Shown: piece after piece, positions 47,006 to 48,376 of the stretch | How the letters are laid out: each line of letters starts with the position of its first letter | Position numbering within the stretch: position 1 is the stretch's first letter | NCBI RefSeq assembly: GCF_023008545.1 | Contig: NZ_CP095397.1 | Span: forward strand, 1-64,000 | Length of the DNA: 64,000 bases | Direction: 5' to 3' | Source of the DNA: Natribaculum luteum | GTDB lineage: Archaea > Halobacteriota > Halobacteria > Halobacteriales > Natrialbaceae | The notes under the pieces: generated by a model | The model's database searches: none | What the model was told of the DNA's origin: nothing | What the model saw: only the letters and a program-made list of their open reading frames with translations | Translations under genes and position numbers: made by a program

Positions 47006-47021
47006 TTTAGGCCACCCTAAA
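47006..47021. promoter_or_regulatory. DtxR/Idr-type iron operator, site 1
   Basis: TTTAGG-CCAC-CCTAAA is an inverted repeat with 6-bp arms, matching the TTAGG...CCTAA half-sites of DtxR-family regulators (Idr1/Idr2/SirR in haloarchaea). It lies about 10 bases upstream of the TATA-like box of the operon at 47062. Confidence 0.7.
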
Positions 47022-47029
47022 AACCGATA

Positions 47030-47036
47030 CGTTTAC
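47030..47036 (+). promoter_or_regulatory. TATA-like element between two iron operators
   Basis: CGTTTAC is placed about 27-30 bases before the ATG at 47062 and is flanked by two DtxR-type sites. Confidence 0.5.
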
Positions 47037-47041
47037 AGTGT

Positions 47042-47057
47042 TTTAGGCTTGCCTAAA
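47042..47057. promoter_or_regulatory. DtxR/Idr-type iron operator, site 2
   Basis: TTTAGGC-TT-GCCTAAA is a perfect inverted repeat with 7-bp arms, ending 4 bases before the ATG at 47062, so it covers the expected transcription start. A bound metal-loaded repressor would block initiation. Confidence 0.8.
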
Positions 47058-47061
47058 TCAT

Positions 47062-47208
47062 ATGGGCTCGAGTAGACGTCTCCCGCCGTGGATCGACGAC
47101 GCCGCGTACGCGGCCAGCGCGACCGTCGGCCGTGACGAGCGGATCGGTGTCGAGAGTGAATCGACCGAAAGCGACCGCGAAACGGGCGCGTCGCCTCGAG
47201 ACGAGTGA
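47062..47208 (+). CDS. small acidic protein, first gene of an iron-box operon
   Basis: A 48-residue protein beginning MGSSRRLPPWIDDAAYAASA and ending with an acidic Ser/Glu/Asp-rich tail. No cysteine or membrane segment. The ATG directly follows a DtxR-type operator. The stop codon overlaps a GTG of the next gene by GTGA and the next ATG is 5 bases later. Third positions are G/C rich. Function unknown. Confidence 0.65.
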   Translation: MGSSRRLPPWIDDAAYAASATVGRDERIGVESESTESDRETGASPRDE

Positions 47209-47213
47209 CGAGC

Positions 47214-47588
47214 ATGGACGCGACGATGCTCTCCGAGATTCGGGCGACGATCGAGTCGCTCGCGAGCGACGATGGCTCCTACGTCGTCGTCTGCGAACGG
47301 ACCGGCGAACGGCCCTTCCCCGCGACTGGAAAACGATTTCCCGATCGAGCGGCAGCGGAAGAAGCCATGCGAGCCGTCGTCGTCTACCGAGAGACGCTGC
47401 GTCGGTACGATCCGCGAACGTACCGATACGACATGACCGTCGTCGAGACGCCGGCGTCGCTACGGCGGTCGGATCACAGGCCCTCGACAGCCGAGGATGG
47501 GACCGACCGCGTCCTGCTGTCGCACTCGACAGCCCGGGGCGACCCACGACCTCTCTCCGTCCCCGACGATCGAACGAACGACCGATGA
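47214..47588 (+). CDS. haloarchaeal DUF7552-like protein, second gene of iron-box operon
   Basis: A 124-residue protein starting MDATMLSEIRATIESLASDDGSYVVVCERTGERPFP. The ERTGERP...GKRFPDRAAAEEA block and RRYDPRTYRYDMTVVE resemble a haloarchaeal family (I believe DUF7552) often found near iron-regulated genes. No metal ligands are obvious apart from one Cys. Its stop overlaps the ATG of the third gene in an ATGA. A GTG at 47205 is an alternative start. Confidence 0.72.
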   Translation: MDATMLSEIRATIESLASDDGSYVVVCERTGERPFPATGKRFPDRAAAEEAMRAVVVYRETLRRYDPRTYRYDMTVVETPASLRRSDHRPSTAEDGTDRVLLSHSTARGDPRPLSVPDDRTNDR

Positions 47589-48376
47589 CCGTCACGACGA
47601 CCGTCGATCGCGCGCTCGAGCGAGTCCGAACGGAACGAGACGCAGTGCAGGACAAACGGGCGGCACTCGAGCGGTTCGTCGCTCGCGTCGAAGACGTCTC
47701 CGTCGATCCGACACCGCCACCGACGCGAGCCAGCACCACGGCCGGCGGCGGAACGCTCGCTGCTCGTTCGTCGCCGACCGACGGCGGCCGTCACGAGGTC
47801 AGAACCGCGTTCGCCGAGACCGTCCGCTCACACAGCGTCGACGACCTCGACGACGACGAGTCGCTTCTCGAGACGATCGCGTCGGAGCTGTCCGACTCGA
47901 TCGCGACGGCACTCGGTTCGACACCCGACGGAGCGTTTACGCCCGACCTGAAACGAGCAGTTCTCTCGAGCACTCGAGATCGGGTAGACGAGACGCAGGT
48001 CGTCGCCGCGGCACTGGATCGGGAGGCGACGCACCTCGCCGACGTTCGCGACGAAATCGCGACGATCACCGACTGGCTCGTCGACGCCGACGACACGCCG
48101 CTGTCGGAGTGCGAGTTCGACGAACTCGCGACGCGCCACGATCGGCTGGCCGCCCACCGAGAACGGTGCGATCGTCTCGTACGCGACCGCCAGGCACACC
48201 TCGCCGAGACGACGAACCAAACTGCGAAGGGTGCAGTCGCTCACCGGACGCTGGTCACGTACCTCTACGACGACTTTCCGGTGGATTATCCAGTGCTCGC
48301 GACCGTCGTTCGACTCGACGCCGTCTGTGCGGACTGCCAGCGAGCGGTTCGCGATCACCTCGTCCGGCGAGCGTAG
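47585..48376 (+). CDS. haloarchaeal DUF7260-like helical protein, third gene of iron-box operon
   Basis: A 263-residue mainly helical, charged protein (long coiled-coil-like stretches about 1-30, 90-200). Residues 225-255 include DYPVLATVVRLDAVCADCQRAVRDHL with a C-x2-C pair. It resembles haloarchaeal DUF7260 proteins; function unknown. Co-transcribed with the two preceding small genes. Confidence 0.72.
   Translation: MTVTTTVDRALERVRTERDAVQDKRAALERFVARVEDVSVDPTPPPTRASTTAGGGTLAARSSPTDGGRHEVRTAFAETVRSHSVDDLDDDESLLETIASELSDSIATALGSTPDGAFTPDLKRAVLSSTRDRVDETQVVAAALDREATHLADVRDEIATITDWLVDADDTPLSECEFDELATRHDRLAAHRERCDRLVRDRQAHLAETTNQTAKGAVAHRTLVTYLYDDFPVDYPVLATVVRLDAVCADCQRAVRDHLVRRA

Follow-up and report, generated by a model that had tools for sequence, protein, structure and literature searches.

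Natribaculum luteum carries a short operon in which two exact palindromes precede genes for a DUF7552 protein and a DUF7260 protein. Sequence comparison supports well the assignment of this locus to the haloarchaeal DtxR iron regulon. Relatives across the order keep both genes downstream of equivalent sites, in many cases as the last genes of iron-transport operons, and it is on this basis that we consider the two DUF proteins probable aids to iron uptake that are produced when iron is low. On balance, we lean toward reading the locus as an iron-repressed operon with a leader cistron, its products being cytoplasmic accessories to the uptake of ferric iron or siderophores. An earlier note on this DNA had seen here a small iron-responsive module. 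Comparison strongly supports that description: the same boxes, spacing, and genes are found across the order, with iron genes both as neighbors and as co-regulated genes. The job of the module, which the note had given as not known, can be narrowed by gene context to that of a putative accessory in iron or siderophore uptake.

Layout of the Locus

The locus lies in the 4.6-Mb genome of a haloarchaeon closely related to Natribaculum breve, where an equivalent locus is present (record NZ_CP095390.1). The window, by which we mean the whole 64-kb stretch of DNA that was analysed, contains a distal iron box (a DtxR-type operator) at 47006-47021, TTTAGG-CCAC-CCTAAA (TTTAGGCCACCCTAAA), and a proximal iron box 36 bp from it at 47042-47057, the perfect palindrome TTTAGGC-TT-GCCTAAA (TTTAGGCTTGCCTAAA). 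Between them, as read from the sequence, lies the TATA-like element TTTACA (47032-47037, + strand), ∼27 nt upstream of the ATG at 47062, which itself stands 4 bases past the end of the proximal box. All of this agrees with the earlier note, which had described two DtxR/Idr-type palindromes flanking a TATA-like box, the second of them ending four bases before the first ATG.

Three ORFs follow on the + strand at 47062-47208, 47214-47588, and 47585-48376. The start of ORF2 was placed by family alignment at ATG 47214 rather than GTG 47205, and the gap between ORF1 and ORF2 is therefore 5 nt; the last 4 nt of ORF2 are shared with the start of ORF3 (ATGA). Genes that overlap or nearly touch had been noted before, and this proved correct except for the GTG start at 47205. 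On the left, the neighboring gene, ending at 46980, is by eye presumably pyrD-like. To the right, the gene at 48482 has no Pfam match, and we take it by eye to encode a membrane protein of rhomboid-like appearance. Neither fhuD, permease, or ATPase genes nor a flavoprotein gene were found beside the operon. The genome has four Peripla_BP_2 loci, and a box was found at none of them (0/4). With no transporter gene adjoining and these four loci unboxed, the module is free-standing in N. luteum.

Iron Boxes in the Window and the Genome

When the window was scanned for TTTAGG-N4-CCTAAA with up to 2 mismatches allowed, the two boxes were the only sites, against a mean of 0.09 in the shuffled window. 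Genome-wide, the exact 16-mer is present in 12 copies versus 1 for the reversed control, and its 14-base core in 16 copies versus 1 for the control. Chance palindromes were rejected on the shuffles, the reversed control, and the genome counts. Between N. luteum and N. breve the half-sites of both boxes are identical (0 changes at 24 positions), whereas the rest of the stretch that runs from the distal box up to the ATG has 8 changes at 32 positions (p = 0.008).

Behind other boxes of the genome are genes for two ferric-type solute-binding proteins and for an ABC ATPase with a TOBE domain. Further boxes precede genes for an RGP protein, a family 2 glycosyltransferase, a nucleotidyltransferase, a DUF7090 protein, and TFIIE alpha, so that the targets include non-iron genes such as those for the glycosyltransferase and TFE alpha. 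The exact boxes at L006 5156, L004 4927, and L001 5804 and 11713 precede genes for TFIIE alpha, a sugar nucleotidyltransferase, a family 2 glycosyltransferase, and an RGP protein. A box at L003 4911 (C1:1560910) precedes a gene for a 10TM ArsP_2-type (heavy-metal) exporter, and the gene for an N-terminal-only DtxR-like protein lies ∼2 kb away.

The DUF7552 and DUF7260 Proteins

ORF2 encodes a DUF7552 protein of 124 amino acids (Pfam PF24422; 108.4 bits, cut-off 27), and ORF3 encodes a DUF7260 protein of 263 amino acids (Pfam PF23921; 262.2 bits, cut-off 27), which bears out both of the family likenesses proposed earlier. ORF3 is predicted to be helical and has CADCQRAVRDHL at its C-terminal end; the C-x2-C previously remarked on is the CADC near its C terminus. 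No membrane segment was detected in ORF2 or ORF3 (maximum KD19 of 0.62 and 1.19).

The commonest form of the protein in relatives is a DUF7552-DUF7551 fusion of ∼300 amino acids. ORF2 ends after DUF7552, and no DUF7551 match was found anywhere in the N. luteum genome. By profile, such short forms occupy 21 of 95 DUF7552 places, a non-random set made up of the 30 best-scoring, 60 that we chose, and 5 others, which includes the window and N. breve and represents one genome twice. DUF7260 is next in line at 46 of the 95 places and accompanies 16 of the 21 short forms. Locus L047 has, beyond the downstream end of the main module, an additional and separate match to DUF7551 (oriented map 8140-8173), which has a box to itself. 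Relative to N. breve (L012), ORF2 has nearly equal dN (0.086) and dS (0.094), unlike ORF3 and pyrD, and constraint on it may thus be relaxed in this genus; once DUF7551 was lost, ORF2 may have begun to decay or to evolve rapidly.

DUF7260 proteins linked to boxes share a C-terminal tail around CxxCQRxVRxHL, present in 54 of 59 linked but 0 of 13 lone sequences. Within the 54 sequences that have the tail motif, both cysteines are found in 43, only the second in 8, and only the first in 3. We rejected the C-x2-C as an invariant metal site because both cysteines occur in just 43 of these 54.

A weak model of DUF7552 (mean pLDDT 67.8) has a helix-strand-helix-strand order, and a structure search with it gave no PDB match at E ≤ 0.001. 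The DUF7260 model is helical and of low confidence (mean pLDDT 55.0). PDB sequence searches with the DUF7260, DUF7552, and DUF7552-7551 profiles returned weak matches only (best E values of 0.0053, 0.54, and 0.81, respectively). The match to the DUF7260 profile is a designed helical protein, 4D2, and likely reflects helix bias.

Boxes and Genes across the Order

Of the 293 genomes of the order, 182 contain DUF7552 and 230 contain DUF7260. Relatives were scored for the exact core TTAGG-N4-CCTAA, which lies ≤350 bp upstream at 62 of the 95 DUF7552 places and 350-1700 bp upstream at 11 more. Nine of the remaining 22 places follow a same-strand fhuD-like gene that is itself headed by a box. For the other 13 of the 95 no box was seen at the head of the gene or fetched operon, the fetched stretch ending early in some. 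Box density is 31 times higher upstream of these genes than elsewhere in the same DNA (87 per 34,295 bases versus 39 per 478,093), and shuffled upstream zones gave 0.025. Where boxes are paired, they bracket a TATA-like stretch, and the spacing is 34-36 bp in 31 of 32 pairs. DUF7260 paralogues divide in the same sense, with a box at 14 of 18 linked but 0 of 13 lone loci. At another group of DUF7552 loci the DUF7552 ATG itself begins 2 nt past the end of the box. A viral origin of the module was rejected, as no relative was found in viral contigs, and a sigma-70-like match was set aside as not relevant to an archaeon.

Gene Neighborhoods in Relatives

The comparison of homologous neighborhoods that the earlier note had suggested showed that iron genes recur. 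Among the 65 longer loci over which neighbors were counted, a FhuD-like (siderophore-type) binding protein is encoded near DUF7552 in 26, two of these (L058 and L105) being in opposite orientation, and a thioredoxin-reductase-like flavoprotein in 15. The recurrent order is box(es), fhuD, flavoprotein, DUF7552-7551, DUF7260. According to its deposited annotation, Halobellus limi has an iron ABC permease, an ATPase, two binding proteins, and an FAD protein, followed by both DUF genes. Deposited annotation likewise gives, in Haladaptatus halobius, the DUF pair, a metal-dependent regulator, and then an iron ABC set and, in Halobaculum, three binding proteins, two FAD proteins, DUF7260, and a regulator. 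In Haloferax larsenii the annotated order is NosL, NifU, DUF7260 (preceded by paired boxes), and a regulator; in Haloferax mediterranei a partial DUF7260 match lies between a binding protein and a metal-dependent regulator, with NifU after the latter. This H. mediterranei match, on plasmid pHME505 (L171 6001-6393), covers just the C-terminal half of DUF7260, and the copy is possibly broken. Against this trend, Halorientalis litorea has the DUF pair downstream of paired boxes, yet no iron gene is annotated in its vicinity.

The regulator genes in these clusters invite a different reading, in which DUF7260 and/or DUF7552 act as an adaptor or anti-repressor that tunes a DtxR-type regulator. The uptake genes would then be co-regulated neighbors and no more. 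This reading derives from the presence of a DtxR-type gene downstream in several lineages, namely downstream of DUF7260 or DUF7551 in L047, L050, L051, L119, and L141 and in the Haladaptatus, H. larsenii, H. mediterranei, and Halobaculum records; the limitation of the CxxCQR tail to box-linked DUF7260 proteins (54/59 linked, 0/13 lone) would also suit it. However, a DtxR-type neighbor (2/65, with more in named plasmids) is rarer than FhuD (26/65) or the flavoprotein (15/65), and by eye no DtxR-type gene was recognized beside the operon of the window. We consider a regulatory role of this kind unlikely, although it deserves some weight.

ORF1 as a Probable Leader Cistron

ORF1 (48 codons) begins at the expected 5′ end of the transcript. 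It has no family match in Pfam or NCBIfam, and no homologue was found among the other fetched loci. Its length is identical in N. breve, but dN (0.099) and dS (0.120) give a dN/dS of ∼0.8, with no sign of protein-level selection. We therefore rejected ORF1 as a conserved protein; the earlier note had counted it as a third protein gene, whereas the absence of selection and a positional pattern in relatives mark it as looking like a leader cistron.

The pattern was counted over 43 distinct loci with a leader of 40-350 nt. An ATG lies ≤15 nt past the proximal box in 27 of the 43, compared with 12% of control windows. For 18 of the 27, the ORF from this ATG has its stop in the interval −15 to +13 relative to the DUF7552 start, as against 10 of 54 off-frame controls (p = 4e-5, an optimistic value since related loci are not independent); the remaining 9 leader ATGs show no such coupling. 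A Shine-Dalgarno-like GGAG or GAGG precedes DUF7552 in 11 of 16 loci without a leader ATG but in 5 of 18 of those compared with them (p = 0.037, optimistic for the same reason). In H. larsenii, reading of the sequence revealed a 14-codon ORF that runs from just behind the box into the start of DUF7260 with an ATGA overlap. ORF1 is thus probably a leader cistron that brings ribosomes to DUF7552 via termination-reinitiation.

Were ORF1 instead a functional micro-protein of the iron response, its start at the expected 5′ end of the transcript and the length kept in N. breve would be natural. The dN/dS of ∼0.8 and the lack of a homologue among the other fetched loci count against this, as do the peptides of relatives, which range from 13 to 58 amino acids and are dissimilar by eye except among close relatives. 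We assign the micro-protein a small probability and retain the leader cistron.

Metabolic Role, Metal, and Candidate Regulator

NifU is encoded near 6 of the 65 loci, and a NifU-type gene also occurs in the two Haloferax records, which raises the question of whether the DUF pair serves iron-sulfur or iron-sparing metabolism and not uptake. NifU is, however, often separated from the module or on the opposite strand, whereas most FhuD and FAD genes immediately precede it in the same orientation. A metabolic role of this sort is consequently improbable. In Haloferax volcanii, a published study reports that HVO_A0549 (NosL) is 13-fold up under iron starvation and that many of the proteins responding to it are hypothetical or uncharacterized (PMC11349517). 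It is our guess that the NosL-NifU-DUF7260-regulator cluster of H. larsenii is syntenic with the HVO_A0549 region.

The DtxR DNA-binding family has four matches over the cut-off in the N. luteum genome. The three that were inspected are a protein with DtxR, dimerization, and FeoA domains, a shorter one with both DtxR domains, and an N-terminal-only one. An iron box lies upstream of the DtxR-FeoA gene (L165 5310 and 6248-6790; C1:3029000-3039000), and an adjoining gene is, by eye, presumably Dps-like. This DtxR-FeoA protein, at C1:3033993, is our candidate for the repressor that binds the boxes. Its best NCBIfam match is an MntR model at 212 bits, below the cut-off of 350, and the boxes might accordingly be genuine yet answer to manganese through an MntR/SirR/TroR-type regulator, but this is very improbable given that the co-regulated and neighboring genes include iron transport genes and that, in the study cited above, a ferR signal precedes all fhu operons of H. 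volcanii (PMC11349517).

Proposed Mechanism

For the iron-repressed operon that we favor, the boxes with their conservation, the membership in the two families, and the gene context are shown, whereas the identity of the repressor, the direction of regulation, the translational coupling, and the biochemical role are all inferred. When iron is plentiful, a DtxR-family regulator would block initiation by binding both boxes, which lie on either side of the TATA region and extend to the start site. When iron is scarce, the promoter would open. The transcript would start at or near ATG 47062, so that ribosomes would load on ORF1 as a leader cistron. Termination would then fall 5 nt short of the DUF7552 start, where the ribosomes would re-initiate, and the ATGA overlap would lead them on to DUF7260. 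DUF7552 and DUF7260 would act as soluble cytoplasmic accessories to the uptake of ferric iron or siderophores, and their most likely part would be to aid the processing or release of the imported iron. The thioredoxin-reductase-like flavoprotein, which shares the operon in many relatives, may be their partner. A siderophore-specific role is unsupported in N. luteum itself, since the operon has neither an fhuD nor a flavoprotein gene beside it and all four Peripla_BP_2 loci lack a box.

More tentatively, and as a possibility we would not yet favor, DUF7552(-DUF7551) and DUF7260 may form an order-wide system that handles imported ferric iron or ferri-siderophore in the cytoplasm together with the flavoprotein, under a double operator placed around the TATA box and with a leader cistron of free sequence. 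To our knowledge, how haloarchaea free iron from siderophores into their metabolism is poorly known. The DUF pair is present in most of the order, and both its operators and its gene order tie it to uptake, which makes it a concrete candidate for such a step. The leader-cistron pattern, for its part, amounts to a testable prediction on translation initiation behind operator-covered promoters.

Comparison with Known Systems

A literature search, with the published FerR regulon papers outside its scope, found no mention of DUF7551, DUF7552, or DUF7260. The ferR signal described in 2015 by Leyn and Rodionov reportedly has the palindromic consensus TTAGG-N4-CCTAA. N. luteum resembles a FerR/Idr-type DtxR regulon in having TTAGG-N4-CCTAA operators, DtxR-family regulators, and co-regulated ferric ABC genes. 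It differs in that the operator of the window precedes two DUF genes without an assigned function.

The likeness to siderophore (FhuCGD-type) ABC uptake operons lies in the relatives, where the DUF7552/7551-DUF7260 pair forms the operon tail, as in Halobellus limi. The operon of the window, in contrast, has no transporter gene and is free-standing between the pyrD-like and rhomboid-like genes.

Termination-reinitiation coupling occurs in haloarchaeal operons. As there, the stop of the leader ORF falls within a few nt of the next start or overlaps it. The leader ORF of DUF7552 is distinct, however, in that it recurs in position and not in sequence, and it starts directly behind the operator.
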